From a virus: DNA of 48,493 bases. The position numbers were made by a program, and so were the translations under genes. A model generated the notes under the pieces. The model had not been told where the DNA came from. It saw nothing but the letters and a program-made list of their open reading frames with translations, and searched no databases. The DNA is taken from IMG/VR virus record IMGVR_UViG_3300003702_000951, positions 1 to 48,493 of that record. The stretch is one strand, 5' to 3'. Shown here piece by piece: positions 904 to 35,716 of the stretch (position 1 is its first letter; every line of letters begins with the position of its first letter).

Positions 904-1188
904 TTATATTATACCAGTCCAAATTTGAGCCTGTTGTCCTACAGAACCATCTTTATCGGGTTCATCAGATGGATTAACTGTGCCTGCCAAAGGTGCACCA
1001 GTTGTTAACGCATCTACCTTATTATTAGTACCTATCATATTAAGGCGAAGAGTATTTACACGAGTATCCAGTGCATTTAGTCTATCTACTATATTCTGAT
1101 AATCATTATCCCACTGATCATTTTTACTATCAATTTTATCAGATAATTCTTTAACTAATTTAAATAAATCTTTAATTGCTTGACTCAT
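904..1188 (-). CDS. Small coiled-coil protein
   Basis: This is a 94-residue protein whose first 70 residues are heptad-like and strongly charged (repeated L/I with K/D/E, as in LFKLVKELSDKID). A short G/P/D-rich tail follows. The start at 1188 lies inside the last codons of the lysozyme gene, a 17-base overlap; the longer ORF up to 1227 would overlap the lysozyme more and looks like read-back into it. The coiled coil suggests an oligomer or a structural or lysis-related part. I do not recognise a family. Confidence 0.6.
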   Translation of the reverse strand: MSQAIKDLFKLVKELSDKIDSKNDQWDNDYQNIVDRLNALDTRVNTLRLNMIGTNNKVDALTTGAPLAGTVNPSDEPDKDGSVGQQAQIWTGII

Positions 1189-2462: not shown

Positions 2463-2466
2463 GTTC

Positions 2467-10372: not shown

Positions 10373-10388
10373 TTAATCACCTCAATAA

Positions 10389-10396
10389 TATTTATC
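10389..10396 (-). promoter_or_regulatory. T4-late-type promoter octamer
   Basis: Minus-strand GATAAATA lies 16 bases upstream of the ATG at 10372, with the AGGTGAT ribosome binding site between them. This is an ordinary leader spacing, unlike the 5-base cases. It overlaps the last codons of the clamp-loader gene. Confidence 0.45.
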
Positions 10397-11321
10397 CATT
10401 ATTACGTAATGCGTTTAACTGAACAAGACATGCGGCTAAATTTATCTCTGGATCTGCACAAGTTGTTTGCTTTACTAAACTATCTCGTATAATAAGAATT
10501 GCTTCATCTTGCAACTCTATAGTATCACCCCAATATTCTAAATTACGATACAGAAATTTAAAAATATCCGTATACTCTTGTGGGTTTGCTTTACTACATA
10601 CTAATTTTCGTGCTTCAGTTATTTTACCTTCTTTAAACAATTGCACCATTTTAAGTCTATAATCTGGACCAATGATTTCACTTTGGTGCGGAGAAAGTAA
10701 CTTACCAGTTTGTGAATTCATTTGACACATGTTAATACATTTACGCAAATCTGGATATGTCGCTTTTACATATAATTCTAATGTATCTATATCTATTTCA
10801 ACACCTTCACTTGTTAACACCTGACCAAGCCTTACCATAAAATCAGTCTCATTTAAACGTTCAATATGGAAACCTTGACATCTGGAATGTATTGCTTCAA
10901 TAATCATAGTAGGTATATTACAAGTTAAAATAAATCTAACTGTACTTGCATACTGTTCCATTACACCACGCGATGATGCTTGTGCCTCTTCTGTAAGGTA
11001 ATCTGCTTCATCTAGTATAACATACTTAAACTCACCAAATGGTAATGTACTACAGAAATTAGAAATTCGATCTCTTATCATATCTATGCCACGTTGACGA
11101 CTTGCGTTAATTTCTAAAACATCACCCCAATCAACATCAAGTTCATATAGTAACACTTTTGCAAGAGTTGTTTTACCTACACCAGGTGCACCACTAAACA
11201 TCAAATGCGGAATTGCTCCACTTTTAACCCAAGACTCTACCTGCTGTTTTTGTGCATCATCTCGAAACACATATTCAGCCAGAGTTTTAGGCCGATATTT
11301 TTCAACCCAAAGTTCTTTCAT
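10392..11321 (-). CDS. Clamp-loader AAA+ ATPase, T4 gp44 type
   Basis: This 309-residue protein (T4 gp44 is 319) loads the sliding clamp onto primer-template DNA. It begins with the RFC signature WVEKYRPKTLAEY. It has Walker A GAPGVGKT (44-51), Walker B with DEAD (104-107), sensor 1 (TCN, about 133-135) and the SRC arginine-finger motif (146-148). A C-terminal collar domain follows. The partner gp62 and clamp gp45 are not in this window. In T4, gp44/62 also put gp45 on DNA for late transcription, which fits the late octamers seen here. The 54-residue gene upstream overlaps its start by 4 bases (ATGA). Confidence 0.93.
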   Translation of the reverse strand: MKELWVEKYRPKTLAEYVFRDDAQKQQVESWVKSGAIPHLMFSGAPGVGKTTLAKVLLYELDVDWGDVLEINASRQRGIDMIRDRISNFCSTLPFGEFKYVILDEADYLTEEAQASSRGVMEQYASTVRFILTCNIPTMIIEAIHSRCQGFHIERLNETDFMVRLGQVLTSEGVEIDIDTLELYVKATYPDLRKCINMCQMNSQTGKLLSPHQSEIIGPDYRLKMVQLFKEGKITEARKLVCSKANPQEYTDIFKFLYRNLEYWGDTIELQDEAILIIRDSLVKQTTCADPEINLAACLVQLNALRNNG

Positions 11322-11482
11322 TTTTTATTCTCTTGTCCAACGCCTGTAATAATTAAAAATACATATAATATTGGCCAGGCCCATCCTGTTATGTAGCCTG
11401 TAATATGTAATATCATTAACACAATGCCAGTTAAACCTGTTGTGCTAATACCTGCTGGTTTGTTAACTTCTGGTAATTTCAT
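11318..11482 (-). CDS. Small two-segment membrane protein
   Basis: This 54-residue ORF is linked to both neighbours by ATGA overlaps: its stop overlaps the clamp-loader start, and its start overlaps the stop of the 11479 gene. The protein is hydrophobic throughout, with likely membrane segments at about 16-31 and 33-47 split by a GWAWP turn and a charged GQENKK tail. The overlaps on both sides make a real translated gene likely despite the size. Function unknown. Confidence 0.65.
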   Translation of the reverse strand: MKLPEVNKPAGISTTGLTGIVLMILHITGYITGWAWPILYVFLIITGVGQENKK

Positions 11483-11730
11483 AATTTTAATTTAGCGATA
11501 CAAATATCTTCTTTTTGGTTAAAGGTTAAAGTAATACCATCATATCCAGTATCATCCCAATAAAAATCCTTACCATATTCCAATCCTTGTTGTCCTAACT
11601 TATTACATAATACAGCAAGTGCTTCACTTTGTCTATAGTTTGCATTAAGGGCACCTCCTTCCTGCACTGGAAGTTTATAGTATGATCTGTTTGAAAGGCT
11701 ATCTACATTAAATGTTTGTTTAAATCCCAT
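11479..11730 (-). CDS. Small hypothetical protein
   Basis: This is an 83-residue protein if started at the ATG at 11730, just before the end of the GroES-like reading frame. In-frame ATGs at 11742 and 11763 are alternatives and none has a clear ribosome binding site. The sequence is mixed alpha/beta with EALAVLCNKLGQQGLEYG followed by YWDDTGYDG and KEDICIAKLKL. No family is recognised. It is coupled by ATGA to the 54-residue membrane protein. Confidence 0.6.
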   Translation of the reverse strand: MGFKQTFNVDSLSNRSYYKLPVQEGGALNANYRQSEALAVLCNKLGQQGLEYGKDFYWDDTGYDGITLTFNQKEDICIAKLKL

Positions 11731-11997
11731 CTGGGTATTCATGACTATGTAACAAAATACCATTTGGATCTATTTTCCAAATAGTTTCTCCTTCTACTTC
11801 AACTCCATCCGTCCATCTACCTTGTGCAACTAAAATCCAATCACCTGGCCTAATATCATTCCTAAAGTGCACCAGCGGGGGCGGATACCTTGATCCTTGC
11901 CGACATCATCTAGTATAACAATACCGCCCGCTGATGTTCGTTCACCCTTTTCTAGCGTAACTGCTAAGATATTACTGCCTATTGCTCTAATTTTCAT
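11720..11997 (-). CDS. GroES/gp31-like co-chaperonin, reading frame broken
   Basis: The first frame (ATG at 11997 to TAG at 11830, 55 residues) starts like a GroES: MKIRAIGSNILAV, then the mobile-loop-like TSAGGIVILDD and DQGIRPRW. It then loses similarity. A second frame continues to TAA at 11720 with the matching C-terminal half (NDIRPGDWILVAQGRWTDG, then GILLHSHEYPDG). The break lies near 11874, beside a run of five G (11877-11881). The total of 278 bases is one short of 93 codons, and homologues I recall have a few more residues between the halves. GroES-like phage proteins cap GroEL for folding of phage proteins such as the capsid. It may be a sequencing error, a real deletion or recoding. 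Confidence 0.6.
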
Positions 11998-19012: not shown

Positions 19013-19940
19013 TCCTATTTTGTCTTCGTAATTTGACTAGTTTATTCAATCCTACTCTGTAGTGTAAACCTGCCAATTCAAATTCACTCCATTCATCTGT
19101 TCTGGGGGCCATGCCTATATGCATACAATTTGATGGTGTTATTTTAAGTTCATTGCATAAATCTTGTTGCATTTCTCTAAACCTATAAGGAATATGATCA
19201 GATCCAAAATGTTTCATCATCCATATTGCCAATTGCATATTGCTACCTACTAAATGATTATAATTATTATGTTGGCAAATCATACCATCATCGTAATTAC
19301 TATATCTAATTCCACTACGAAAACGACCACATCCTAAACCTTTACTTGTGCTAAAACTTACTTCAGTAATTGCTGGATGTAAAAAATCAAACTCTATATC
19401 CATACAAGTGCCATACCATGCACAATCTACTAATACCGGAGTATCAGATTGTAATGCATCATCAAGCATCTCATCCATATGATAATGCCTGTCTCCAAAT
19501 CCTGCAAACGGAAGACTAATAATAACATATTCATTTTTAGTTAAAGGTGCATACTCGCCTGTTGCTCTATCAAGATGATCTAATTGAGGAACAAAATCTA
19601 TATACGTTTCGTACACTCTTTTATTATAACCATACTCTCCGCGAAAGACTCGCAATGTTTTACCGCGGTGTCGCCAATGAAATTCATCCAATGCTTGCGT
19701 ACTTCCTATAATTGAATCTTTACGACTAAATCTAAATGGTTCTAAGCTTGTAACATTTATAGTATTTAGAGCATTCTCAATGATCCAATTATGCATTCGT
19801 TCTAAGAAGTAATCCTTGCAATCAAAGAAATTATTATCCTTTATCCATTGTTTCCATGGTGCTTCACTTAACACTGCTTGCCATTTTGGTTCCCATACTG
19901 CATGTGCATCTGTTAATAAAACATCTTTATGCTTTAACAT
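19008..19940 (-). CDS. Divergent PLP-dependent aminotransferase-like protein
   Basis: This 310-residue protein has the two landmarks of fold-type I PLP enzymes in correct order: an Asp in a strand end (VLVDCAWYGT, Asp172) that would hold the pyridine nitrogen, and 28 residues later a lysine in FSTSKGLGCGRFRSGIRYS (Lys200), the Schiff-base position as in SxSKxxGxxGxRxGY. The N-terminal STQALDEFHWRHRGKT segment could be the cofactor-phosphate region. It is shorter than typical aminotransferases (about 380-400). It ends the radical SAM operon, overlapping the fusion gene by 14 bases. It may transaminate or rearrange an amino acid made by that operon. Family likely, reaction unknown. Confidence 0.65.
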   Translation of the reverse strand: MLKHKDVLLTDAHAVWEPKWQAVLSEAPWKQWIKDNNFFDCKDYFLERMHNWIIENALNTINVTSLEPFRFSRKDSIIGSTQALDEFHWRHRGKTLRVFRGEYGYNKRVYETYIDFVPQLDHLDRATGEYAPLTKNEYVIISLPFAGFGDRHYHMDEMLDDALQSDTPVLVDCAWYGTCMDIEFDFLHPAITEVSFSTSKGLGCGRFRSGIRYSNYDDGMICQHNNYNHLVGSNMQLAIWMMKHFGSDHIPYRFREMQQDLCNELKITPSNCMHIGMAPRTDEWSEFELAGLHYRVGLNKLVKLRRQNRI

Positions 19941-21618
19941 ATTCTACAAACTCTTTTAACTTTGGTTCTATTTCTTTTAAATCCTCTTCTCTTATTATAT
20001 TACATTTCTCTATCCATTGCAACGATATTTTTTGCTTTTCTGTAGAAAATGTATTATATTCTTGTAATGTTTTAATTAACTGGTGCAGTTCAGATTGATG
20101 AAGTGTTTTTAAATTTAACATGTATATGTCTTTTAAACGATCAATAGTATCTTTTAACATAAACGAAGGAATGTTTTCAAGACTTGCATAATAAGGTGCT
20201 TTAACAAAATTAATTAACTTTATTTTTGTATTACGTTTTGTTGCTAATGCATTGTGCCACATTATTAAATCAGGTATATTAAAAACATTAAACAAACTAA
20301 ACACTGGCATTATTAAAATAGTTGCGTCTAATGTTAATAACTTTTTTATATTTTCCTCAACAACATTAAATTCATAATCACGAATATAATTATACAAGGG
20401 TCCTATAGCATCAATACTACAAACTATAATTAAATCCGTAATTTGATGTAACTGTGAAATAATCTTATCTGTAATTAAAGTACAATTTGTAGTTATAGTT
20501 ACTCGATTAGTTAATTGCATATCAGCAAACTTTTTAAGAAAAGTAAGAACTGATTTATTAAACATAGGTTCTCCACCTATTAACTCGATACTTAATTCCT
20601 TATCCTCTACTACTTTATTAAATAATTCATCCATAAATATATCATTTATTCTAAACTTATTAGTTGCTAATTTTTGCCTATCAATAAATTTCTCACCTGT
20701 CATATTTTTATCATACTTACTCCATCCAGTTGAAAAGAAACTATCACATGTAGCACAAGCAACATTACATCTATTTGATACTGCTACTTCAATAAACACT
20801 GGTGCAGTCCTATCAGATAAAAATTCTATATTATTTTGCTGTCTATTATGAGACCATTTTTGTCTCTTTGACTTCATTCCATACTTTTCTTTCTGTATAC
20901 AATTTAAACAACCATTAGGAATTTTTCCATTAAGAAAACTATCTTTTATTTCTTGCAATTTATCAGAAGTAAAATATTCATCTATTGTAATAGGAGTTGT
21001 TGTATAATCAAATAACGCATACTTAGGATCATATGCACAACAAGGCATTACATTCCCAGCAGTATCTATAGCCATTGTTTCAAATGGCATATAACAAAAC
21101 TTATTCATCAAATAATCTGTACCTCCAGTACCCAGCTTATCTCCTATAATACGCTCTACTGCTTTCATATGCGAAAACTGCCATTTCTTAAATGCATTCT
21201 CAATATCACACAATTCTTCTCTATTTCCCGTAACCCTAGGGTTACGAGAAGTATTACATTTACTTGGCAATATTTTTAATAATCGTTCTACTTCTAAATA
21301 TTGTTTTGATTGTTTTCCTGAAGCTGTCCCTAATGTTCTTCTGAATGCTTCATAATCTTTGGGCGTCATTGTTGCTATAATATCCCACAAGGCATTTAAA
21401 TGATTAAATATTTTTACAATACGCTTTAAATTTACACCAATTGGTGAATTTAATTCGTGTATCAATACTTTAAACCATAACTCTGACGATTGATGTGCAA
21501 CTATAAACATTAATTCAGTATGTTCATTAGTTAATGATTCTTGTATTGATAATAATTCATCTAATTTTAAATAAGATTCATAAGTTAATATATCATCCAA
21601 AATAATCTTCCTGGCCAC
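19927..21618 (-). CDS. Tryptophan 2,3-dioxygenase-like/radical SAM fusion
   Basis: Residues 1-172 of this 563-residue protein match tryptophan 2,3-dioxygenase: YLKLDELLSIQ, NEHTELMFI (His33), HQSSELWFK, FRRTLGTASGKQS (Arg93/94) and FSHMKAVERIIG (His150, the heme-ligand position), then GTGGT (163-167). Regions between the motifs are shortened (the free enzyme is about 280 residues). Residues 173-563 are a radical SAM protein with a front cysteine block (C175, C193, C194, C237, C240) for an auxiliary cluster and the CxxxCxxC triad at C284, C288 and C291, followed by an IGGEP segment. The fusion suggests oxidation of an indole plus radical chemistry on the same substrate. It overlaps genes on both sides. 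Confidence 0.85.
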   Translation of the reverse strand: MARKIILDDILTYESYLKLDELLSIQESLTNEHTELMFIVAHQSSELWFKVLIHELNSPIGVNLKRIVKIFNHLNALWDIIATMTPKDYEAFRRTLGTASGKQSKQYLEVERLLKILPSKCNTSRNPRVTGNREELCDIENAFKKWQFSHMKAVERIIGDKLGTGGTDYLMNKFCYMPFETMAIDTAGNVMPCCAYDPKYALFDYTTTPITIDEYFTSDKLQEIKDSFLNGKIPNGCLNCIQKEKYGMKSKRQKWSHNRQQNNIEFLSDRTAPVFIEVAVSNRCNVACATCDSFFSTGWSKYDKNMTGEKFIDRQKLATNKFRINDIFMDELFNKVVEDKELSIELIGGEPMFNKSVLTFLKKFADMQLTNRVTITTNCTLITDKIISQLHQITDLIIVCSIDAIGPLYNYIRDYEFNVVEENIKKLLTLDATILIMPVFSLFNVFNIPDLIMWHNALATKRNTKIKLINFVKAPYYASLENIPSFMLKDTIDRLKDIYMLNLKTLHQSELHQLIKTLQEYNTFSTEKQKISLQWIEKCNIIREEDLKEIEPKLKEFVEYVKA

Positions 21619-22663
21619 CTTCGCGGATTGTATCCATTGTTAAGCAATGTACTGCACCATCCCAAAAATGCTGATGCCTAAAATGCCATGGCCAACCTTC
21701 TATACCAGCTTTTGCAAACTGATCATATATTTCTTTATTATAACCATTAGTAATAACTAATTCTTCACTAACACTAAACATATTAACATCAAATACTGTC
21801 TCATCACAATATCCAATCCACTCTGTAAGATAATCAGATACAAAACTTTTATACCATCTTTTTTTACGAGTATTTCTAAACCCTTCTGGTAAGTTAAATG
21901 CAGTATCGGGTATTTGAATTATATCCCAACTTTTCATAATATCAGGTATAACATTTTTATTCCAACATGCAACAACACCAGGTTTAAGTAATGCTAATTT
22001 ACCATCTAGATGCCCACCGTGATCTATAGCATGGAATCTAAACTTGTCTCCTAATGCACGTTGAATCCATTCCATACCAAGGTCAGTACCTTTACCTATA
22101 TGCCTACCTTGACTAGGTTGTACTAACGAGTAAAAAATATCGCGGCCGCATCGTAACAGGTTTGCTGAATGATATAATAACCGTTGCCCGTCATGCTCGT
22201 TATATTGTTTTGTATCACTGTCAAAGTTCGGCATTGGCATTGACAGCCAGTTATTGCCTGCTTTGTAATACTCTACAAAATAATCGTATGTACTCCAATT
22301 ACTAAAAAAACGTCCATTATTACCTGTATAAAAATCTATTAGTGTATCACCATACACGCCTGCTGTATCTCGCGGCTGTAATGGATGATCAGGAAAAGCA
22401 AACTCGAATTTTTGTAAATTACAAAACCCTTTTCTCTCTTTAAGATCAAAAACAACTTTTGGACGAAGCACATTAACTCCTAAACTTTCTAAAAATTCTT
22501 TAACTTTTAAAATATCTTCCTCAGTTTCATCAAATATTCTTTTTAATCCATTACGTAATTCGTCATCGGGGAAATGTTCAGCAGTAATATCTTCTGAGCT
22601 ATATGCTTTTCCTAATATAACTTCTTTAAGTGGCTGAAACTCTGACCATGAATTAGCTTTCAC
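21593..22663 (-). CDS. Amidinotransferase family enzyme
   Basis: This 356-residue protein resembles glycine (L-arginine:glycine) amidinotransferase. It has an N-terminal FQPLKEVILGK strand, PRDTAGVYGD, the GGHLDGKLALLKPG segment with the catalytic His, and DGAVHCLTMD near the C-terminus with the catalytic Cys. These enzymes move the amidino group of arginine to an amine such as glycine or lysine, or hydrolyse guanidines. Substrate-binding loops cannot be read. The 3' end overlaps the TDO/radical SAM gene by 26 bases and the 5' end overlaps a radical SAM gene by 11. Family is confident; that it makes a guanidino compound in this operon is inference. Confidence 0.85.
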   Translation of the reverse strand: MKANSWSEFQPLKEVILGKAYSSEDITAEHFPDDELRNGLKRIFDETEEDILKVKEFLESLGVNVLRPKVVFDLKERKGFCNLQKFEFAFPDHPLQPRDTAGVYGDTLIDFYTGNNGRFFSNWSTYDYFVEYYKAGNNWLSMPMPNFDSDTKQYNEHDGQRLLYHSANLLRCGRDIFYSLVQPSQGRHIGKGTDLGMEWIQRALGDKFRFHAIDHGGHLDGKLALLKPGVVACWNKNVIPDIMKSWDIIQIPDTAFNLPEGFRNTRKKRWYKSFVSDYLTEWIGYCDETVFDVNMFSVSEELVITNGYNKEIYDQFAKAGIEGWPWHFRHQHFWDGAVHCLTMDTIREGGQEDYFG

Positions 22664-24284
22664 TTTTCTTCCTTAAAATTTGTATCTGTGTATACTCTAA
22701 TTGATTTGAAGCTTCAACATCTTGTGTTTGTACATTAACAATATACGCATCCTCAAGCATATCCAAAGTACCACTTATTTTTTCGGCCGCAGTTTGTAAA
22801 GGATCATATTCTTTTAATAAACTATATAACCCTGGTAATGCTTCTTCTAATTTCTGAGAACGATATCGATCCATTAAACGAGTTTCTACAAAAAATTGAT
22901 CTAACGCATCAGGTGTATTATCACGATACATATGGTTAATTACACCCTGCCCTTGCTTTTTCCAAATACCTGTTTCCTTTCCTATTTTTTCAATTTTCTC
23001 TGCTATAATATCTTTTACATTAGTAGGCAACGATGCTATATTAAAATATCGTGGATCATGAAGCATATGTAAAATCATATCATCCATTTTAATATCTTTA
23101 TGACTGCGTATTTCATCAACAAGTTCACGTAAATAAAAAACATTATAAATTTGTACTGTTGTTATCATTTCTAAGGATAAGTTAATTTTACCACTTTCTT
23201 TTATATTAGTTAAAAGACGAAGATTTCTTAAAACAATATCCCAATTACTTGGATAACGAATATACTCATTTACTTTACCAGGTGCATCTATACTTGTACG
23301 TAACTCAATCTTTTTAAAATGCTCCCATAATTCCAATGCTCTCTCAGGAATATTTGAAAGATTAGTATTATAATTTAAAATAATGTCCTTTGCTTTACCA
23401 TTGTCTACATATCCTTGCAAGAATTCATAGTGCTGAGTAATCATGAGTGGTTCTCCACCACTCATATGTATGTGTTTTATTTTAGGTGACTTATCTGATA
23501 ACTTTTCAAATAATACTTTACTATCTGTCCATAGATATGGATCACTTTTAACATCCAAAATAACATTTGATTGTGCAATGTCCTCGCCATCTAATACCTG
23601 ATGCTTTGTTATAATAGCCTTTTGATTATTATCTAATCCTATCGTCATTTTAGTATTACCAGGCCCAGTAAATTTTGGTTCCCATACACTTTTAGCTCCA
23701 GTATAAACAATATGTCTATATTGAAACATATCATACCATTCTTGATACCAAGCAGAACTTTCTCCCGGATAACACATACGACATTGTTGATTACACAAAT
23801 TACCTAAACGTATGTCAGCGGCAAACAATGGTACTTCTGCTATATCATTAATTGTTCCATCTTCAGCTGTTGTTTCAAATGCATCATCAACTGTAAAACC
23901 ATTATTGCGGTGTACTTCCCTATCTGCCATTCGACGACTTTTAATACCATTATCATCTTCATCATTACATCTTTTACAAATAGGATGACGTTCACCACGT
24001 AACATATAAGACCGCACTTCTTTAAGAAAATCATTATTACGAATTTCATCTAAATCAGTAGTACGACAATCAAGAGGAACATTATCTTCTTTATCTGGAT
24101 CATTACTTTCCCATAGAGTACCTCGAGTAAACTTTCCCATACTCCCTTCTTGCTTCCATCTGTTATTGCGACGTTTATAACTATTTGCTTGAACACATAA
24201 TCGATAATGCCCTAAGCTGTTTATACTATAAGTTACCCATGGTACTGGGCACCAACTTTTATTTTTAGTTAGATCCTTTGACAT
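22653..24284 (-). CDS. Radical SAM protein with auxiliary-cluster cysteines (twitch/SPASM-like)
   Basis: This 543-residue protein has an N-terminal cysteine block (WCPVPWVTYS, RLCVQ, PICKRC), the radical SAM triad CNQQCRMC at about 163-170, and SGGEP further on for S-adenosylmethionine binding. The front block is like that of the other two radical SAM proteins in the operon, so they are paralogues. Radical SAM enzymes use a 4Fe-4S cluster to make the 5'-deoxyadenosyl radical. The C-terminal 100 residues (EEALPGLYSLLKEYDPLQTAAEKI) are extra and helical. It overlaps the zinc-finger gene by 20 bases. Confidence 0.88.
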   Translation of the reverse strand: MSKDLTKNKSWCPVPWVTYSINSLGHYRLCVQANSYKRRNNRWKQEGSMGKFTRGTLWESNDPDKEDNVPLDCRTTDLDEIRNNDFLKEVRSYMLRGERHPICKRCNDEDDNGIKSRRMADREVHRNNGFTVDDAFETTAEDGTINDIAEVPLFAADIRLGNLCNQQCRMCYPGESSAWYQEWYDMFQYRHIVYTGAKSVWEPKFTGPGNTKMTIGLDNNQKAIITKHQVLDGEDIAQSNVILDVKSDPYLWTDSKVLFEKLSDKSPKIKHIHMSGGEPLMITQHYEFLQGYVDNGKAKDIILNYNTNLSNIPERALELWEHFKKIELRTSIDAPGKVNEYIRYPSNWDIVLRNLRLLTNIKESGKINLSLEMITTVQIYNVFYLRELVDEIRSHKDIKMDDMILHMLHDPRYFNIASLPTNVKDIIAEKIEKIGKETGIWKKQGQGVINHMYRDNTPDALDQFFVETRLMDRYRSQKLEEALPGLYSLLKEYDPLQTAAEKISGTLDMLEDAYIVNVQTQDVEASNQLEYTQIQILRKKSES

Positions 24285-24459
24285 TCTTTAATATATCCAT
24301 TTTATTATAACTGTTTTCATTATAATATTTTGTACCGCATTCACAACCACAAAATGGTAACAATTTTTTACTATCCTTTACATAAAATTTCTCATCAAAA
24401 TAATATTTTATATCCATATCAGGAGGTAATATAGTTGAGCAATAAGAACATTTAAGCAT
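24265..24459 (-). CDS. Small FCS/TRASH-like zinc-finger protein
   Basis: This 64-residue protein has an N-terminal CSYC pair and a second block FCGCECGTKYY about 33 residues later, with an aromatic stretch between (IKYYFDEKFYV). This matches small FCS or TRASH-type zinc fingers (CxxC...FCsxxC). The gene overlaps radical SAM genes on both sides (8 bases above, 20 below), so its product is made with them. It could be a metal-binding accessory or a substrate carrier. A ribosomal precursor peptide was considered, but no leader/core division is visible. Confidence 0.65.
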   Translation of the reverse strand: MLKCSYCSTILPPDMDIKYYFDEKFYVKDSKKLLPFCGCECGTKYYNENSYNKMDILKNVKGSN

Positions 24460-25855
24460 TACAAAATTCCCAATACATTTTTAATTTAGGGAATACTTTA
24501 TGAAAATCTGTATTACGCATTTCATCAAATTTTAATATAGAATTAATAAATGCTTTTTTCTCAAAATCTGGAATTATTTTTTCTGTTACTTCAAGTGATG
24601 AAATATATTGATAATATGGTTGACCATTTTCAAAAATACCTAATTCTTTACATCGGTTAACACACTGATGTAATACTTCCAATGCATTTTCTCTTAATTG
24701 AGGTATAACTACAATATTATCAAATTTAAATACATCGTTCCACGGATTCATTGTTAAACCTGTCCATTGATCAGGCAAACAATTAGTAATATACCATTCT
24801 AAACATTCCTTCTGATGTAAAATATTAAAAATATTAATAGAATGTTGTAAATTTACTGAACAACCGGCTTCAACGAGACGATTATATGTTTGTATCCATT
24901 TTTTATCTTTATATCCATACCGAACATATTCACCAACAGGTCCACAACCATCATGGCTCATTGTAATACGAAAACGTTCTCCCCATTTTGACAAATATTT
25001 TTCAATAATATCTATACCTTTATATGTACGAATAGAACCGTTAGTATGACACCATATATAAACTCCAGTATCTGGGTTATGTAAATCATGCTCAATTAAT
25101 CTATCTAATGTTTGATACACTTCGGGCATCATAAATGGTTCACCACCTTGAAAATGAATATGAGTAATTGTATCTTTATGCTCAATAATATAATCAATTA
25201 ACCCGTTTGCATCTACTTTACTTTCTAAGCATTCATCTTCAGCAAAAGATTCGCGGACGTTAGCATGAGTATCACGTATATCATAAGCAGTTATATATTT
25301 TCCAATAGTTGTACTATTAGACATATGACAACCCATACAAGCAAAATTACATTTATTCGAAAACATTATATCAAGCCACACAGGTTTCTGCTCATGCATA
25401 TAACCTGTTTCATCAGTATGCTCTATTAAATCATCTAACACCGAAACAGCCCAGTCAGTGTTACTTACTCGAGGATTTGCTGGCACTTTATAACGGTGTT
25501 CTAGATCCCAACATGTATCACAATATTTCTCATCAATGCTACCTGTCCATAATTCTATTTTACCTGTACGTCTCTTTTCCATATGGCCATTTAAAAAATT
25601 TAATCTTACTTTTTTAGCAACAGATGAATTTAATATATCTTTAAGGTTAGTATGTCCCTGTCGAAGATCGCCATTCTCACCACGACCAGCCATGCAACAA
25701 AACTTAATATCACCAGTTGCCTCAAAAATAAAACTTGACCATGGTGCTCCACAAATACTTTTACCATGTCTTTGCGTAAGTGGTAAAAATTCAGTATGAT
25801 ATGGATCTATACCATCTCCATCGATATATGCACGATTAATCTTATCTGCGTCCAT
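24452..25855 (-). CDS. Radical SAM protein, first gene of the operon
   Basis: This 467-residue protein has a front cysteine block (ICGAPWSSF, FCCMAGRG, YCDTCWDLE), the triad CNFACMGC at about 168-175 and FQGGEP for S-adenosylmethionine. The block with APW and CC pairs is the arrangement of radical SAM proteins with an extra Fe-S cluster (twitch/SPASM-like). It is the first gene of the six-gene operon that runs to 19008, and a CTAAATA octamer is 5 bases before its ATG. Its reaction is unknown; peptide or amino-acid modification is the commonest job of this branch. Confidence 0.88.
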   Translation of the reverse strand: MDADKINRAYIDGDGIDPYHTEFLPLTQRHGKSICGAPWSSFIFEATGDIKFCCMAGRGENGDLRQGHTNLKDILNSSVAKKVRLNFLNGHMEKRRTGKIELWTGSIDEKYCDTCWDLEHRYKVPANPRVSNTDWAVSVLDDLIEHTDETGYMHEQKPVWLDIMFSNKCNFACMGCHMSNSTTIGKYITAYDIRDTHANVRESFAEDECLESKVDANGLIDYIIEHKDTITHIHFQGGEPFMMPEVYQTLDRLIEHDLHNPDTGVYIWCHTNGSIRTYKGIDIIEKYLSKWGERFRITMSHDGCGPVGEYVRYGYKDKKWIQTYNRLVEAGCSVNLQHSINIFNILHQKECLEWYITNCLPDQWTGLTMNPWNDVFKFDNIVVIPQLRENALEVLHQCVNRCKELGIFENGQPYYQYISSLEVTEKIIPDFEKKAFINSILKFDEMRNTDFHKVFPKLKMYWEFCNA

Positions 25856-25885: not shown

Positions 25886-27949
25886 TTATACTTTCTTTGT
25901 AATTACTTCAACTATATTACTAGGACATGGAGCATAATGACTAAACTCCATACTAAATTGGCCGCGGCCACTTGTCTGACTGCGTAAATCACCTATATAT
26001 CCAAACATTTCACCCAATGGTGCTTCTGCTGTTATACGAGTAATTATTCCAACCATTTCTTGATTACGAATCATACCACGGCGTCTGTTTATATCACCTA
26101 TTACATCACCAACTTTATTTGCGGGACAAATTACATCAAGTTTCATAATTGGCTCTAATAATTGCGGACCTGCTTTAGGCATTGTTTGTCTAAATGCAGC
26201 TCGTGCCGCTAACTCAAATGCTACCGCACTACTATCTACAGAATGGCTTGAACCGTCCGTTAATGTTACTTTGTAATCAAGCATCGGATAGTTAGCAAGT
26301 ATACCGCCGGCACTAGAGTTTTCAAATCCCTTTTCTACTGCGGGCCAGAACTCCCTTGGAACACGGCCACCCGTAACCTTGCTTTCAAATTGAAATCCTT
26401 CGCCTGCTTTTAAAGGTTCAATTGTATATTCAATATCAGCAAACTGTCCTGCACCACCAGTTTGTTTTCTATGCACATATTTGTCACTAACTGTTTTAGT
26501 AATAGTTTCTCTATATGCTACTTGTGGTTTACCAATACTTACTTCTATTCCATATGTACGTTTTAATATATCACATTTAATATCCAAATGTAATTCACCC
26601 ATACCTTTAAGTATTGTTTGGCCTGAATCTTGATCTGTCTCAACATGAAATGACGGATCTTCTGCTACCATTTTACCAACAGCAGTACCTAACTTATCCA
26701 TATCACTTTGTGTTTTAGGTTCTATTGCTATACTAATAACAGGATCTGGAAATACCATTGGTTCTAATATTGCTGGATTCTTTTTATCACATAATGTATG
26801 ACCTGTTTTCACAGATTTCATACCAAGCAATGCAACAATATCACCTGCCTTAGCATTAGGAAGTTCTTCTCTATCATCGGCATGCATTTCAACAATACGA
26901 CCTACCCTTTCTGTTTTACCATTTGTACTATTATATATAGAATCGCCCTTTTTCATTTGACCAGAATATATTCTAACAAATGTTAAAGCACCATACTTGT
27001 CTTCCATTATCTTAAACGCTAATGCTCGTAACGGACTATCAACATCTACTATAGCAACTTCACCAGTTGCTTCACCTTTCTCATCCACTTCTGGCTGTGG
27101 TTCAACCTCTGTTGGATTAGGTAAATAATCTACTACAGCATCCATTAAAAGTTGTACACCTTTATTCTTAAAAGAACTACCACAATATGTTGGAAAAAAG
27201 TTAGTACTAATAGTGCCTTTGCGTATACATTTTTTAAGTTGATCTACAGTAATAGAAACAGGATCTTCAATCCATTGCATCATTATTTCATCATCCATGT
27301 CTACTACTGCTTCTACAAGTTCTTCATAATACTGCTTTGCTTCCTTAACCATATTATATGGAATTGGGCCATCAGTGTACGACATAGGATCTGCCGGGTC
27401 TGACCACGTTCGTGCTGTTTGATTTAGTATATCAACAACACCAATAAAAGTATCCTCTACACCAATTGGAAGTGTCATAATAACTGGCATAGCACCCAAT
27501 CTAGTTTTAATTTGTTTTATTACACGTTTATAATCAGCACCAATCCTATCCATTTTATTAACATAAATAATTCGTGCTACATTACTATCATTGGCATAAT
27601 GCCAATTCGTTTCTGATTGTGGCTCTACACCTCCATTGGCACAAAACACACCAACACCACCATCGAGTACCTTAAGGGAACGATAGACTTCAATTGTGAA
27701 GTCTACGTGGCCAGGCGTATCAATAATATTAAACCGATGATCTTTCCAGTAGCAAGTAGTTGCGGCAGACTGTATCGTAATGCCTCGCTCTTGCTCTTGC
27801 TCCATAAAATCTGTGGTAGCGGCGCCATCATGAACTTCTCCCATCTTGTGGATCTTTCCGGTAAGCTTCAGAATACGTTCCGTAGTTGTAGTTTTACCTG
27901 CATCTACATGAGCAAATATTCCTATATTTCTGTACTTTTCTAATTCCAT
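25886..27949 (-). CDS. fusA: Elongation factor G
   Basis: This 687-residue translational GTPase drives translocation of tRNA and mRNA on the ribosome. G1 [16 protein letters not shown]2 [12 protein letters not shown]3 [12 protein letters not shown] and G4 NKMDR are all intact, and the domains II-V segments ([15 protein letters not shown], then ASSAGGIL and [16 protein letters not shown]) are full length, so it should be active. The [18 protein letters not shown] segment resembles a second EF-G type of marine proteobacteria rather than the standard form. It follows the YqgE gene by 4 bases. EF-G is very unusual in a phage; with bL33 and deformylase it implies altered translation during infection. 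Confidence 0.96.
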
Positions 27950-27953: not shown

Positions 27954-28517
27954 CTAAAAATCCAACAATTTATCTACTGTCTCTGTAGCATAACTACCAA
28001 TTGCTTTTTCCCATTTATCTCGATCATCTGTACCAAATAACAATTCTTCTGTAGCATCAATATACATCCAACCACTGGTTGGGTCTCGTGGCCACGAAGA
28101 TTCTACTTCTAATTCAAGTTGGCCCGGGTTCCAACCAGCATATCCTAAAGTAATTTGGAATTGACGAGGGCCTAAACCTTGGGCAATATCTACTAAAATA
28201 TCTACACCTTGTGTAACTGACAACCAACTGGTTACTTCTTCTGTTAGCATCGTCTTGTAATCAGATGTATGTAAAACAAAACCTACTTGTGATTCAACTG
28301 GCCCACCAAAATATATTGGTACATTTTTTTGTACCGGATTTTCAATATTGGCTTTTTTACACAGTTCTAACCACAAAGATCTACTAACAGGTTTATTACT
28401 AATAAACCCAATAGCACCTTCAGCATTATGCTTATACATAAAAATAACACTTTCGATAAATCGAGGGTCATTCATTTTTGGTGCCGCTACTAAAACTTTA
28501 TTATGTAAATTCTCCAT
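27954..28517 (-). CDS. YqgE/AlgH family protein (DUF179)
   Basis: This 187-residue protein has the family pattern: [23 protein letters not shown], then [25 protein letters not shown] and [23 protein letters not shown]. Bacterial YqgE (about 187 residues) is widespread with no settled biochemical role; AlgH affects alginate regulation. The start matches the family N-terminus, even though a perfect late octamer lies only 2 bases before the ATG, too close for that promoter to include the start codon. It is likely a host-derived gene. I cannot say why a phage keeps it. Confidence 0.92.
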
Positions 28518-29821: not shown

Positions 29822-30847
29822 TTAGATATCATTTATACGGTTCCACGCAATTTCACGACTAACCTTATCTGTAGGAATATTCTCTATTTTACTCCTAACT
29901 AATATCTCCATTGTACGATCACTTATTTGTTCTAACTGTTCGTCAACTTTATCTAAAGTATCATATATCTCAGCACTAATAGCAATTACTCCTCCACTAT
30001 TCACCAAATAATCTGGAGCATAAACAATATTGTTCTCAAACAACCATTTATCTGTTTCTATATCATCTAATTGGTTATTTGCTGAACCTACAATAGCATT
30101 GCATCTCAGCTGTCGTCGAGTGCCTGCATTAATTATATTTCCCAATGCACAAGGACTAAAAACATTACAACTAACCTTGTGTATTTCTGTTACTTCAATT
30201 TCTGTATAAGGAATTTCTTTCTTAAGACTATTTAACGCTGATCTGTCTATATCAGCAATTATAAGGTGTACATTGTCATTATTAAGCAATTTTGCTAGTT
30301 TACTCCCTACTTTACCTATACCACTAATAGAAATATACATACCATCTAAACTATCAGTTGAATTCATAAATTTTGACGTTGCTTTTATTGCATTATATAT
30401 ACCAACGGCTGTTGGTTCTCCACTATCGGATTTTACACCACCGCAATATTTTGTTACTGATTTTGTATGTAATAAGTCTTCAATTGTTGTTCCAACATCA
30501 CCAGCAGTATAATATATACCACCTAATAATTCAACTGCTTCACCTAATGCTTTATAAAGTTCTGGTGTTTTTATTCCATTAGCAACCTTTGCATTAATTA
30601 CAGCTTTACCACCACCATGATTAAGACCACAAATACTATTCTTATATGTCATGCCTTCTGCTAATCTAAGAGCATCATTTAATTGTTCTTCAGTATTTTC
30701 ATACTCCAGAAAACGACAACCACCAAGCGCAGGCCCTAATGCAATATTATGTACTGCAATTATAGCATCAAGATTTACATCATCATTTGTTGCTCTAACT
30801 ACACGTTCATAATCGTCAATATGCAAATCTTCTATTATTGTTGGCAT
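29822..30847 (-). CDS. Leucine dehydrogenase-like amino-acid dehydrogenase
   Basis: This 341-residue protein belongs to the Glu/Leu/Phe/Val dehydrogenase family. The active-site lysines are seen in GGCRFLEY, MTYKNSICGLNHGGGKAVI, and GDVGTT further on, and the NAD-binding GxGxxG is GIGKVGS (about 175-181). The enzyme interconverts leucine or a related amino acid and its keto acid with ammonia and NAD. It is slightly shorter than bacterial LeuDH (about 365). It follows the SpoVR gene by 5 bases, in the starvation-response cluster. Family is confident; substrate specificity is not determined. Confidence 0.88.
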   Translation of the reverse strand: MPTIIEDLHIDDYERVVRATNDDVNLDAIIAVHNIALGPALGGCRFLEYENTEEQLNDALRLAEGMTYKNSICGLNHGGGKAVINAKVANGIKTPELYKALGEAVELLGGIYYTAGDVGTTIEDLLHTKSVTKYCGGVKSDSGEPTAVGIYNAIKATSKFMNSTDSLDGMYISISGIGKVGSKLAKLLNNDNVHLIIADIDRSALNSLKKEIPYTEIEVTEIHKVSCNVFSPCALGNIINAGTRRQLRCNAIVGSANNQLDDIETDKWLFENNIVYAPDYLVNSGGVIAISAEIYDTLDKVDEQLEQISDRTMEILVRSKIENIPTDKVSREIAWNRINDI

Positions 30848-30852: not shown

Positions 30853-32382
30853 TTATATCTCCAATGCTGGTAAAGTATTAGTCTGATATGCTCTCAAAAT
30901 TCTATCCCCTGTTAATGTATCTATACTTTCTAATTTTACTGTATACCCCCACAACCTTTTAACATGTTTTAACATTTCATCAGTACTACGATCAAGTAAC
31001 CTACCATTTACAACATTATGTCGTAATGTTAATGTACGCGATGCTGTAAAATCTGCATCTGCTACTTCTATATCAGGAATTAAATTACTAATATTATACA
31101 TATTAGATAGCGTTTCTCTAATACTCTTATATCCAACACTATTATGAATATTTTTTACTTCATACTGGTTACTGCTTGTATTGTTATTCAATGAAAATAA
31201 TCTCATTTTTCTCATTAATGTAGGACTTAAAAATTGCTTAATAAATGATTCATCTCGATAATCCCTAACAGCATGTAAACAAGTTTCAAGCCAATCACTT
31301 CCAGCAAAACCAGGAAACCATTCTTTATCTTCAGCAGTTGGATTTTCACAAATTCGCCTAATATCCCTAAACATTTCAAATCCTAAATAATATGGATTAA
31401 AACCATTGTATCCTTTCATATCAAATGATGGCTGAAACATTACTCCACTGTGTGTATGAAAAAATTCTAACATAGCACCTTCTGTTAAAAGACCTTTATC
31501 GTATAATCTATTCATTATATAAAAATGAGAAAATGTTGCCCAACCTTCATTCATTACTTTTGTTTGATATTGTGGATAAAAATATTGTGCAACCTTACGC
31601 ACAATACGAACTAACTCTCTTTGCCAATCTTTTAAAATAGGTGAATTCTTTTCTATAAAATATAAAACATTTTCCTCTGATAACTTTGAATCACCGTCTG
31701 AAAATGCAACGTCTTTCTTTTTCTCTTGTTGTTTTTTTGTTTTAGGCAATGTGCGCCACAAATCATTATAAATTTGTCGCAGATACGTTCTACGTTCGGC
31801 TGCTCTTTCTTTCTCTTCAAAAAAGTTTAATTTCTGTGGACGCTTATACTTACTAATACCATGCTTACTTAATGCATGACAACTATCTAGAATTTTTTCA
31901 ACAACCTCAGTTCCGTGCTTTTCTTCACACTCTGCAATATAATTTTTAGCAAATACAAGATAATCTATAATATGACTAGCATCAGTCCATTGCCTAAAAA
32001 GATAATTGTTTCTAAAAAAATGATTATGTCCAAACGCGGCATGTGCAATAACAGTAGTCTGTGTTGTTATTGTATTCTCTTCCATTAAATAATTAATACA
32101 AGGATTACTATTAATAACTATCTCATATGCTAAACCAGTATAACCCTTTCTATAATTTTGTTCTTCAGCAGAAAAATGCTTACCAAAACTCCAATGCCTA
32201 TAATATATTGGTAATCCTGAACTTGCATAGGCGTCAAGCATTTGCTCAGACGAAATAACTTCTAGCTGATTTACATATACCTTTAATTTTAATTCCTCTA
32301 AAGCTATTTTTTCACATTCAGTATAAGCATCTTCTAAAAGAGGAAATGACCATTCTGTTCCAGTATATAACGGTGATACCAT
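30853..32382 (-). CDS. SpoVR family protein (YcgB-like)
   Basis: This 509-residue protein matches the SpoVR family in length (E. coli YcgB 510) and sequence: WSFGKHF, the IVINSNPCINYLMEEN segment, HAAFGHNHFFRNNYLF, and KVMNEGWATFSHFYIMNRL. Its histidine- and glutamate-rich segments look like metal-binding helices. In bacteria SpoVR is encoded with yeaG/prkA and yeaH and is induced in starvation or sporulation; the mechanism is unknown. Here it directly follows the YeaH-like gene (1-base overlap), preserving the host order. All three are full length. Confidence 0.94.
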   Translation of the reverse strand: MVSPLYTGTEWSFPLLEDAYTECEKIALEELKLKVYVNQLEVISSEQMLDAYASSGLPIYYRHWSFGKHFSAEEQNYRKGYTGLAYEIVINSNPCINYLMEENTITTQTTVIAHAAFGHNHFFRNNYLFRQWTDASHIIDYLVFAKNYIAECEEKHGTEVVEKILDSCHALSKHGISKYKRPQKLNFFEEKERAAERRTYLRQIYNDLWRTLPKTKKQQEKKKDVAFSDGDSKLSEENVLYFIEKNSPILKDWQRELVRIVRKVAQYFYPQYQTKVMNEGWATFSHFYIMNRLYDKGLLTEGAMLEFFHTHSGVMFQPSFDMKGYNGFNPYYLGFEMFRDIRRICENPTAEDKEWFPGFAGSDWLETCLHAVRDYRDESFIKQFLSPTLMRKMRLFSLNNNTSSNQYEVKNIHNSVGYKSIRETLSNMYNISNLIPDIEVADADFTASRTLTLRHNVVNGRLLDRSTDEMLKHVKRLWGYTVKLESIDTLTGDRILRAYQTNTLPALEI

Positions 32383-33761
32383 TATTCGTCCTCTGTTACT
32401 GCTTCCATTTTATTTTCTGCACTCATATTCACTGTAGAGAAAAACTCTCTAAACACAGGAACAATTTCTGTAGCATCTTTAACTTTTCTACTAACTAAAT
32501 TTGGCCATTGCGTATGCAATTTTTCATATAACTCCCACATGGAAGAACGGTTACTACCAGATTGCGCCGACCAAAAACTTCTACTTTGTTCATACATACC
32601 TGCAATCTCAACATATGTATAAAATTTTACTATTGGTAATATACTATTTACAAGAACTTCTTCTAGATCAGGAATATCACTAGCAAAATTATCACCATCA
32701 CTTGCTTGGGCAATATAAGCATTCCATTCAGATTGCAGATAACGCTCTTTAAGTATTTTTTTAGCTAATATTAAACCACTGCTAACAACTGTCCCTCCTG
32801 TTTCTTTACTATGAAAAAACTCTTCTTCAGTACACTCAATTGCTTCAGTATGATGCCTAATAAAAACTACATCAACATCCTCATATTTTCTTTCAAGAAA
32901 CAGATACAACAAAAGAAAAAATCGTTTAGATAATTCTTTTTCTCTTTCACCCATACTAGCACTAACATCCATAATACATATCATTACAGCAGAAGATGTT
33001 GGCTTTGGATATTTTACAAAATTATTAAATCTTAAATCAATAGGATCTATAAATGGAATTGATTTTGCACGTTTTGCTAATTTTTCTCTTTTAATTTTTA
33101 ATTCTTCAATTAATGCCCTATTCTTTGTCATAGGTTTAACTTCTTCTTTATAATATTGTATTTCTTCTTCTAGCCGTATAATTTCGTCATCTATTTCTTT
33201 AAGTTGTTTTTCTTTAGGAAATTTTAATGCAATACGTCGTCCTAAACTTCTAATCATACTTTGTTCAACATTAAGTTGACTAGGACTACCTACAGTTGTA
33301 TATCCAGAACGATGACTTTCCCATACTGTAACATTTTCTTTATTTTTTTCTTCTAAATTAGGTAATTCTAAATCTTCAAATACTATATCTAAATATTCTT
33401 CTCTTGATAAACTAAATTGAAATTCATCTTCACCTTCACCTGAATCACCTGCACCAGGGCCGCCACCATTACCGCTACCACCTCGTGGTTTATCAATTTT
33501 ATCACCTTTAATAAAATCCTTATTACCTGGCAATATAAAATCATAATCACCGGTAGTATGATCGTTTCCAAATATTGGTTCTTGAATGCCATCCGTAGGA
33601 ATACTAATACTCTCTTCGCCTTTATCTGTTATAGATCGATTAACAACATTCTTATGAATGCGCTCAGATAAATGTTTTTTAGCACGACGAATAAATCGTT
33701 GACGATTTGAAATACTTTTACCTTTCGGATTAAGTCTCCGATCAATAATATATTTAGACAT
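32382..33761 (-). CDS. yeaH: YeaH/YhbH family protein (DUF444)
   Basis: This 459-residue protein (E. coli YeaH 427) has the basic N-terminal segment (NRQRFIRRAKKHL, about residues 20-32), a Gly-rich linker (PRGGSGNGGGPGAGDSGEGED) and a C-terminal von Willebrand A-type domain with a metal-binding MDVSASMGE motif (DxSxS). In enterobacteria YeaH is encoded with YeaG, a kinase with roles in nitrogen starvation. The gene lies between spoVR and prkA and overlaps spoVR by one base. It probably acts as partner or substrate of the kinase. Confidence 0.93.
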   Translation of the reverse strand: MSKYIIDRRLNPKGKSISNRQRFIRRAKKHLSERIHKNVVNRSITDKGEESISIPTDGIQEPIFGNDHTTGDYDFILPGNKDFIKGDKIDKPRGGSGNGGGPGAGDSGEGEDEFQFSLSREEYLDIVFEDLELPNLEEKNKENVTVWESHRSGYTTVGSPSQLNVEQSMIRSLGRRIALKFPKEKQLKEIDDEIIRLEEEIQYYKEEVKPMTKNRALIEELKIKREKLAKRAKSIPFIDPIDLRFNNFVKYPKPTSSAVMICIMDVSASMGEREKELSKRFFLLLYLFLERKYEDVDVVFIRHHTEAIECTEEEFFHSKETGGTVVSSGLILAKKILKERYLQSEWNAYIAQASDGDNFASDIPDLEEVLVNSILPIVKFYTYVEIAGMYEQSRSFWSAQSGSNRSSMWELYEKLHTQWPNLVSRKVKDATEIVPVFREFFSTVNMSAENKMEAVTEDE

Positions 33762-33769
33762 TAGTATAA

Positions 33770-35716
33770 TTAACTACTCTTCTGGACCCGCATATACCAT
33801 TCAACTAAGCGGCGGACTTGTCTATTAGTATATCCTTTTACTTCCATTCGCTTAACAAAATCATTATGCTTCTTTTGATCATCTTTATTACCTTTAGCAG
33901 TAAAACTAATAACTGGTAATAATTCCTCAGTTGATGCGAACATCTTCTTTTCAATTACTTCGCGAAGTTTTTCATAGCTTGTCCATTTTGGATTTTTACC
34001 TTTATTACCTGCTTTAGCACGTATTACAAAATTAACTACCTCATTACGAAAATCTTTAGGATTAGCAATACCAGCTGGCTTTTCAATCTTTTCTAATTCC
34101 TCATTAAGAATATTACGATCAAACAAATTACCAGTGTCAGGATCTTTAAAATCTATCTCTTGAATCCAAGCATCAGCATATTCGATATAACGATCGAACA
34201 AGTTTTGCCCATAATCACTATAGCTTTCTAAATATGCCTTTTGTATTTCATTACCAATAAACTCAGCATACTTCAAACTTAAAAAATCTTTAATAAATTC
34301 TAAATAACCATCTTCTTTTTCTTTTGGAAATTGTTCTCGTTTAATACTATCTTCTAATACATACATTAAATGTATTGGATCAGCCGCAATTTCATCTGTA
34401 TCAAAGTTAAATGTCTTTGATAATGTCTTAAAAGCAAATCGTGTCGATATTCCTGCCATACCTTCGTCTACGCCAGCAGTATCTTTATATTCTTGCATAC
34501 TCTTTGCTTTAGGATCTACATCTTTAATACTATCTCCATTATATACACGCATCTTACTATAAAGAGAACTATTCTCATGTTCATACAAGCGAGTTAATAT
34601 ACTAAATTTAGAAAGCATATTTAAAGTTTCAGGCGCACACTTTGTTTGAGTAATACCTGATTCACTTAACATCTTATCATAAATTTTCGTTTCCTCGTCG
34701 ACACGCAAACAATATGGAACTTTTACAACACAAATTCTATCAATAAATGCTTCATTGTTTTTATTATTCTTAAACGTCTGCCATTCTGCTTCATTACTAT
34801 GTGCTAAAATAATTCCATTGAACGGAATAGCACTAATACCTTCTGTACCTATATAGTTGCCTTCTTGTGTAGCCGTTAACAAAGGATGAAGCACTTTAAT
34901 CGGAGCTTTAAACATTTCAACAAACTCCATGAGTCCTTGATTACCACGACACAACGCACCACTGTAACTATAACTATCAGTATCATTTTGACTATAATGT
35001 TCTAACATGCGAATATCAGTTTTTCCTACTAAAGAACTAATATCCTGATTATTCTCATCACCTGGTTCAGTTTTAACAACACAAATTTGCTCTAATTTAC
35101 TTGGATATATTTTAGCAATTTTAAATTTTGTAATATCACCTTTAAATTCTTTTAACCGTTTAATACCCCATGGACTTATTAATCCTGTTAAAAATCGGGT
35201 ATCAACATTATATTTTTTCTTTAATGTATCTCCAAACTTCTTAGGCTCAAATAATCCTAGTGGAGATTCAAATACTGGAGACAACTCTATCTCTCCATTC
35301 CTTTCAGCAGCTAAAGTATAAACTGGAAATGTTTGCATTAGTTCTTTTAATGCTTCTGCTAATGAACTCTTACCACCACCTACTGGTCCAAGCAAATATA
35401 AAATTTGCTTACGCTCTTCTAATCCTTGTGCCGCATGTGTAAAATAACCTACAATACGTTCAATTGTTTCTTCCATGCCATAAAACTTATCAAATGATGG
35501 ATAAATCTTAAGTGTCTTATTTAAAAATATACGAGATAGTTGATGATCTTTACTAGTATCTACTAACTTTGGTTCACCTATCGCAGAAATCATTCTTTCC
35601 GCTGGCGAAGCATAAACTAACTGATCCTTTTTACAAAGATTAAGATACTCCTCAAATGTTATATATTCAATTTGATTTTTAGCATGTTCGGCAAGATACT
35701 CCTTAAATATGGTCAT
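33770..35716 (-). CDS. prkA: PrkA/YeaG serine protein kinase
   Basis: This 648-residue protein (E. coli YeaG 644) has an N-terminal AAA-like domain with Walker A GPVGGGKSS (about 114-122) and a C-terminal kinase-like domain. Landmarks include GTEGISAIPFNGIILAHSN and GISTRFAFK. I start at the ATG at 35716, which has GAGGA ribosome binding site; the ORF continues in frame to 35794 but that part is the divergent intergenic region. PrkA phosphorylates proteins in starvation and sporulation. It heads the trio and would start from the region between it and the plus-strand gene at 35797, where a CTAAATATTAG motif is seen near 35755. Confidence 0.94.
   Translation of the reverse strand: MTIFKEYLAEHAKNQIEYITFEEYLNLCKKDQLVYASPAERMISAIGEPKLVDTSKDHQLSRIFLNKTLKIYPSFDKFYGMEETIERIVGYFTHAAQGLEERKQILYLLGPVGGGKSSLAEALKELMQTFPVYTLAAERNGEIELSPVFESPLGLFEPKKFGDTLKKKYNVDTRFLTGLISPWGIKRLKEFKGDITKFKIAKIYPSKLEQICVVKTEPGDENNQDISSLVGKTDIRMLEHYSQNDTDSYSYSGALCRGNQGLMEFVEMFKAPIKVLHPLLTATQEGNYIGTEGISAIPFNGIILAHSNEAEWQTFKNNKNNEAFIDRICVVKVPYCLRVDEETKIYDKMLSESGITQTKCAPETLNMLSKFSILTRLYEHENSSLYSKMRVYNGDSIKDVDPKAKSMQEYKDTAGVDEGMAGISTRFAFKTLSKTFNFDTDEIAADPIHLMYVLEDSIKREQFPKEKEDGYLEFIKDFLSLKYAEFIGNEIQKAYLESYSDYGQNLFDRYIEYADAWIQEIDFKDPDTGNLFDRNILNEELEKIEKPAGIANPKDFRNEVVNFVIRAKAGNKGKNPKWTSYEKLREVIEKKMFASTEELLPVISFTAKGNKDDQKKHNDFVKRMEVKGYTNRQVRRLVEWYMRVQKSS

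Follow-up and report, generated by a model that had tools for sequence, protein, structure and literature searches.

The viral record IMGVR_UViG_3300003702_000951 of the IMG/VR collection, a linear sequence of 48,493 bases that we analyzed over its whole length and refer to as the window, carries three adjacent genes for homologues of PrkA (YeaG), YeaH (DUF444) and SpoVR (YcgB). In bacteria, PrkA, YeaH and SpoVR form a widespread stress operon that is switched on by starvation. The trio in the window is real, viral, intact and under strong purifying selection. From linkage and phylogeny, it is an old cassette maintained by phages and not a recent host fragment, and we propose that PrkA and YeaH may form an AAA+ motor and its von Willebrand A (vWA) adaptor, with SpoVR as their client. 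The three genes are the following:

33770 to 35716, minus strand: PrkA/YeaG homologue of 648 residues, an AAA+ ATPase with an all-helical PrkA C-terminal domain
32382 to 33761, minus strand: YeaH/DUF444 homologue of 459 residues, a vWA domain with a complete metal ion-dependent adhesion site (MIDAS)
30853 to 32382, minus strand: SpoVR/YcgB homologue of 509 residues, gluzincin-like in its predicted model, with SpoVR_C at the C-terminus

All three proteins exceed the curated NCBIfam equivalog cut-offs. PrkA matches both of its Pfam domains above cut-off and over the full length (PF08298, 5.2e-171; PF06798, 2.6e-70) and scores 1178.6 bits against NF011999 (cut-off 576); YeaH is full length as well (PF04285, 6.2e-154; NF003707, 540.7, cut-off 396), as is SpoVR, which comprises SpoVR and SpoVR_C (PF04293, 2e-160; NF008737, 778.8, cut-off 679). 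The PrkA and YeaH genes are separated by 8 bp, those of YeaH and SpoVR overlap by one base, and both order and strand are those of the bacterial operon. We place the start of PrkA at the ATG at 35716, in agreement with its relatives, within a longer open reading frame that opens at an upstream TTG (35794). The residues on which the functional interpretation draws are:

PrkA, AAA+ residues: Walker A GPVGGGKSS at 110-118, the E264/E267 region, sensor-1 N308, the arginine-finger candidate R327, and sensor-2 G422-x-S-T-R426
YeaH, MIDAS residues: D265, S267, S269, T324 and D355 (DxSxS...T...D)
SpoVR, motifs: HAxxxH (H114, H119) and NEGxA (E279)

In alignments of 39-40 rows, the AAA+ residues, including K116, S117, E267, N308, R327 and R426, are intact across the relatives of PrkA; the Walker A residues G114, G115 and S118 are nearly invariant, and the remaining AAA+ residues and all MIDAS residues are invariant. 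One contig, L073, has GPVGAAKSS as the Walker A sequence of its PrkA (10001-11929). An initial annotation of the window had described three adjacent full-length genes in host order with tight spacing, and intact GPVGGGKSS and DxSxS motifs in PrkA and YeaH; coordinates, Pfam matches, equivalog cut-offs and the residues listed above bear this out.

The same annotation placed the trio in a phage genome and named two findings that would speak against its proposal, namely host DNA wrongly joined to the record and inactivating changes in other members. Neither was found. Most of the window is co-linear with an independent contig, L002: tens of genes match at ~35-85% identity, the trio included. The guanine-cytosine (GC) content of the trio (0.315) and its GC content at third codon positions (0.14-0.19) equal those of the rest of the window, as against a median GC of 0.62 in bacterial trio loci. 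On co-linearity and composition, we reject host contamination or misassembly for the window. Its remaining genes resemble those of phages and encode an endolysin, a clamp loader, a virion structural protein, a ribonucleotide reductase, a ClpA-type ATPase and a phosphoribosyl pyrophosphate synthetase. A terminase large subunit was found on 15 of the 34 further long contigs that have the trio, two of which measure 415 and 578 kb, and on no contig did the ribosomal protein uS12 score above cut-off. The ratio of non-synonymous to synonymous substitution rates (dN/dS) between related phages is ~0.03-0.12 wherever dS is finite, with many of these pairs close to saturation, and truncated trio reading frames in the fetched phage loci all lie at contig ends, save for one SpoVR with an intein-like insert.

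Host-like copies do occur among the IMG/VR matches, and they lend some substance to the idea that the trio is bystander cargo or host contamination, without function for the phage. Two such contigs were set aside, L076, which is identical to an Enterobacter copy, and L078, which falls among betaproteobacteria. The small Enterobacter phage record MN688132.1 (LAU1) likewise has YeaG and YeaH at its end (1-3308), where they look like flanking host chromosome. For the window and its main clade, the co-linear contig, phage-like composition, terminase-bearing contigs and low dN/dS, together with the linkage and the single clade described below, leave this explanation with a very small probability.

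The initial annotation had suggested searching viral genomes for the trio, and this search showed the trio to be a unit: wherever a phage locus extends at least 5.5 kb beyond PrkA, which is so for 51 loci, the genes for YeaH and SpoVR are present in that order, with median gaps of 11 bp (PrkA-YeaH) and −7 bp (YeaH-SpoVR). Among 36 representatives, the trio is common to 30-35, whereas any other flanking family is common to at most 8. All three genes persist even where they are dispersed (LR756502, LR756504); in LR756502, SpoVR lies ~245 kb away. That many huge-phage lineages keep the trio, with nothing else in common around it, says that PrkA, YeaH and SpoVR work as one unit that is useful during infection. 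PADLOC returned nothing for YeaH and SpoVR, and for PrkA only a P-loop match to IetA, and on this result we rejected a role in anti-phage defence.

Some phage trios have acquired insertions. Genes for homing endonucleases of the HNH/NUMOD3 type lie between PrkA and YeaH in L005 (11957-12478), L040 (11895-12677) and L058 (11928-12899), and L017 retains a NUMOD3-only remnant at this place. In L074 (13397-15817), an 806-residue SpoVR carries an intein-like insert inside the HAA|xGH motif; the insert starts with CVSGDTEYLS and ends with VTGN before a C, and it had no Hint or intein match in Pfam at E <= 0.01.

Whether phages had obtained the trio in one or more transfers was also raised by the annotation, and our trees point to one old main lineage and at least three separate ones. 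The trees are quick ones, supported solely by the Shimodaira-Hasegawa-like approximate likelihood ratio test (SH-aLRT). In the concatenated tree, rooted with Thermomicrobium, a single clade with an SH-aLRT of 100 unites 26 distinct phage trios, that of the window among them; Pseudomonadota and the root fall outside it. In the SpoVR and YeaH trees, a supported branch (97 in both) sets off 26 and 29 distinct phage sequences, respectively, again including those of the window, and in the PrkA tree a branch of 95 splits ~30 phage rows from the remainder. We discarded a PrkA tree rooted on Thermus phages, in which the root came to lie among the phage sequences and on a very long branch. The closest phage PrkA is 85% identical to that of the window and the closest bacterial one, from Thalassospira, 71%; bacteria outside Pseudomonadota were thinly sampled, so that a closer bacterial donor may exist. 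A second phage set (LR745206, LR756502, LR756504, L077, L080, L081) lies near gammaproteobacterial copies, and Thermus phages and LR756511 have separate versions at ~25-30% identity with all three parts present. Phages have thus acquired or diversified the trio several times. The complete linkage despite varying flanks, the single phage clade and the separate versions in other phages together mark the main-lineage trio as an old cassette that phages have maintained.

As to what the trio does, the initial annotation suggested that the phage controls host starvation or persistence, possibly by phosphorylating host targets, with PrkA in this reading a serine kinase. The family name speaks for a kinase, as do two published results: AceA is reported to be a substrate of E. 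coli YeaG in vitro, with malate (PMC8055822), and K426A, a change within the kinase domain that has been proposed for YeaG, gives a null mutant (PMC4664914). By a constant offset of +4, E. coli K426 corresponds to K430 in the window, four residues beyond the sensor-2 arginine R426, and for this reason the mutant cannot separate a kinase from an ATPase. In E. coli, deletion of yeaG and deletion of yeaH lead to the same phenotype, and the change K116A in Walker A likewise abolishes function (PMC4664914). We found no protein-kinase family of Pfam in PrkA at E <= 0.01; the C-terminal part of its structure model (predicted local distance difference test, pLDDT, 75.5; predicted template modelling score 0.62) is all-helical, with no β lobe; and purified PrkA of B. 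anthracis oligomerised with ATP and had no detectable kinase or protease activity (PMC13001217). Foldseek and VIA matched the model to AAA+ machines, and kinases are not among the matches listed, an absence that by itself excludes nothing. With no kinase domain, an all-helical C-terminus and an inactive B. anthracis protein, the kinase reading is weakly supported and less likely than the AAA+ one, and phosphorylation of host targets as the purpose of the trio seems improbable to us.

The best VIA matches of the PrkA model are to NorQ and CbbQ (Z 12.3-11.8, root-mean-square deviation 3.9-4.4, 221-241 residues aligned). By sequence, PrkA falls outside the MoxR family, as of the MoxR-type AAA domains of Pfam only AAA_5 was found and this below cut-off (E 0.0038). 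Among proteins of known structure, a sequence search found the PrkA-family entry 9xip, and RavA is a weak match (E 0.33). NorQ/CbbQ-type motors work by means of a vWA protein that bears a MIDAS motif, and NorQ/NorD insert iron into their client (PMC9976466, PMC13036017). The corresponding partner in the trio would be YeaH, whose type of MIDAS is present in the Thermus phages too.

Neither YeaH nor SpoVR has relatives among solved structures that are detectable by sequence. The top VIA matches of the SpoVR model (pLDDT 80.6) are gluzincin metallopeptidases, with Z-scores from 13.1 to 9; against viral predicted structures there was a single match, to an unnamed entry. By eye, the order of the SpoVR motifs LMEEN, VIAHAxxGHxH and NEGxA recalls M1 peptidases. 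E279 is invariant in our SpoVR alignment, and its motif, which becomes HEGxA or NEGWA in distant relatives, resembles the M1 NEGxA, again by eye; sequences of only ~25% identity still have the motifs H-x(3,4)-H and EGxA. The catalytic glutamate of HExxH is missing from every sequence inspected, replaced by alanine (HAxxxH) or, in distant relatives, by valine (HVLGH/HVMAH). As far as its predicted model indicates, SpoVR may thus resemble gluzincin metallopeptidases without having their catalytic glutamate. An H127Y substitution in E. coli YcgB has been recorded in a population selected with iron(III) (PMC10044975); H127 corresponds to H119 in the window, the second histidine of the motif.

The trio could alternatively be an ATP-dependent protease, in which a Lon-like PrkA or a metallopeptidase-like SpoVR would degrade or process host or phage proteins. 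Weak Lon matches of PrkA around Walker A, casein cleavage reported for B. subtilis PrkA (cited in PMC13001217) and the gluzincin-like model of SpoVR fit this interpretation. The Lon matches are confined to the P-loop region, however, the pure B. anthracis protein showed no protease activity, and SpoVR lacks the glutamate that catalysis in HExxH enzymes depends on, so that proteolysis appears to us an improbable function.

Taken together, the AAA+ model of PrkA, the MIDAS of YeaH, the motifs and model of SpoVR and the precedent of NorQ/NorD suggest a scheme of motor, adaptor and client. PrkA would form an ATP-driven AAA+ ring of the NorQ/CbbQ kind; YeaH would dock on it through its vWA domain and hold the client at its MIDAS, as in NorD and CbbO; and SpoVR would be the dedicated client or effector, a metal-binding gluzincin-like protein; the motor would determine its metal site or its conformation. 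We consider such a mechanism, as opposed to a kinase, more likely than not. Several observations weigh against it. NorQ/CbbQ score no more than about one Z unit above other AAA+ proteins (~11) in a model of middling quality, and the phosphorylation of AceA stands as a result in favor of a kinase. The link between SpoVR and gluzincins rests on a predicted model, and helical models can reach Z-scores near 13 by arrangement alone; Foldseek had no PDB match for it at E below 0.001. Comparisons of SpoVR with M1, M32 and MATCAP in hhalign left homology unconfirmed, with probabilities below 1% that were no better than for the PrkA and YeaH controls, although profiles of only 3-10 rows each make this a weak negative.

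The location of the trio in some phages weighs in the same direction, as it would suit a virion-assembly chaperone that folds or matures head or tail proteins. In L051, the trio is flanked on one side by a tail spike gene and on the other by genes for a head-tail adaptor, a T4 neck protein and the terminase large subunit (TerL); in Thermus phage Lalka8, vWA, SpoVR and PrkA are found between the portal/minor head genes and TerL; and the L019 group has a gene for a tape-measure-like protein upstream. Such a role has been proposed by Iyer et al. 2021 for a MoxR protein with a metallopeptidase-vWA fusion (PMC7824862), and one has been reported for Acidianus two-tailed virus. Elsewhere, the neighbors are DNA polymerase and UvsX (L061), NAMPT (L046, L049), RtcB (L071) or elongation factor G (window, L002, L005, L009), and this variation weakens a virion role but does not remove it. 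Phage PrkA is moreover 65-71% identical to bacterial PrkA, and since it also passes the bacterial equivalog cut-offs, client specificity seems unchanged. We regard assembly of the virion as an unlikely function, and think that the trio probably retains its known bacterial-type function in host physiology.

In bacteria, yeaG dampens metabolism and in this way maintains the viability of cells starved of nitrogen (PMC4664914). A phage that expresses its own copy of the trio, as is putatively the case here, would free the adaptation of its host from the host's starvation regulators (NtrC, ppGpp, RpoS), and a slowly replicating phage could thereby keep a starved cell viable and productive. Control of the host starvation state, which the initial annotation had brought up, is in this sense plausible. 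For the full proposal, a NorQ/NorD-like AAA+/vWA machine acting on SpoVR and used in the physiology of the starved host, we see a little under an even chance. The further idea that a motor which loads metal into SpoVR or remodels it is the true biochemistry of the bacterial operon too, with phages running starved hosts independently, is a tentative one that we would rather doubt. The phage copies offer small natural variants and, with infection of starved hosts, a screen with a strong phenotype for solving the operon. Reading the trio as an AAA+ protein, a vWA protein and a metal protein replaces the kinase hypothesis by a testable one, for which the H127Y substitution of E. coli already points to the same residue.

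Two genes near the trio recur in only a few of its relatives:

29822 to 30847, minus strand: ELFV-family amino-acid dehydrogenase, directly downstream of the trio, a lineage-specific neighbor
25886 to 27949, minus strand: elongation factor G, full length (TIGR00484, 936.8 bits, cut-off 659.4)

The dehydrogenase had been called a leucine dehydrogenase and taken to fit nitrogen stress. Its sequence supports no more than the ELFV superfamily, its best NCBIfam model being the tryptophan dehydrogenase ScyB, below cut-off (256.7 against 600). As no contigs but the window and L002 have it beside the trio, it lies outside the conserved unit and is uninformative on nitrogen stress. The window phage also encodes a tryptophan dioxygenase-like domain, the N-terminal part of one of three twitch-domain radical SAM proteins (NF033640) at 19927-25855 (minus strand), the part being related to tryptophan 2,3-dioxygenase. 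Elongation factor G is found next to the trio only in the groups of the window, L002, L005 and L009, and the copy in the window is 78-82% identical to the others. Adjoining it, in L002 as well, is a homologue of AlgH/YqgE (DUF179; 27954-28517, minus strand), which had no match in PHROG, and at 2467-4659 (minus strand) the window encodes a double AAA+ ATPase of the ClpA/ClpC type with a Clp_N domain.

Phage copies of these genes have been deposited before, in GenBank for phiYS40 and in one paper's table for RsoM2USA, yet in the literature we searched we found no paper that recognises the phage PrkA-YeaH-SpoVR as a module; three papers on jumbo phages (PMC9723777, PMC12619734, PMC9123017) mention neither PrkA nor SpoVR. 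The Thermus phages phiYS40, TMA, phiLo and Lalka8 have relatives of PrkA, the vWA protein and SpoVR in one neighborhood, deposited as serine kinase, SpoVR, and conserved bacterial protein or vWA; they differ from the window in their low identity (~25-30%), in the order vWA-SpoVR-PrkA and in belonging to a separate lineage. The cultured Ralstonia jumbo phage RsoM2USA encodes SpoVR (ORF28) and PrkA (ORF30) two open reading frames apart, and its description lists the two separately, gives ORF29 no name in the running text and presents no module made up of them (PMC8504454). The uncultured huge phages LR745206, LR756502 and LR756504 (634-642 kb) contain all three genes at 39-61% identity, but represent the second lineage near gammaproteobacterial copies.

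Among systems of similar build, NorQ/NorD and CbbQ/CbbO, in which a MoxR AAA+ protein works with a vWA adaptor, have the folds nearest to the PrkA model and likewise a vWA partner with a MIDAS. PrkA differs from their motors in its long helical C-terminal domain and in having no MoxR sequence match above cut-off, and SpoVR is without a counterpart there. The MoxR and metallopeptidase-vWA pair of group 2.2 jumbo phages (PMC7824862) shares AAA+, vWA and metallopeptidase-type parts with the trio; the families are different ones, the peptidase is fused to the vWA protein, and the likeness is by types of part only. The closest system remains the bacterial operon itself (yeaGH with a separate ycgB in E. 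coli; operons in Pseudomonadota and Thermomicrobium), which has the same families, order, strand and tight spacing, with equivalog cut-offs passed. The phage copies are set apart from it by forming their own clade, by a GC content of ~36% as against ~62%, and by genes for YeaH and SpoVR that often overlap. The trio as a system is thus already known, and what is new is a lineage specific to phages, its breadth and the proposal of a mechanism.

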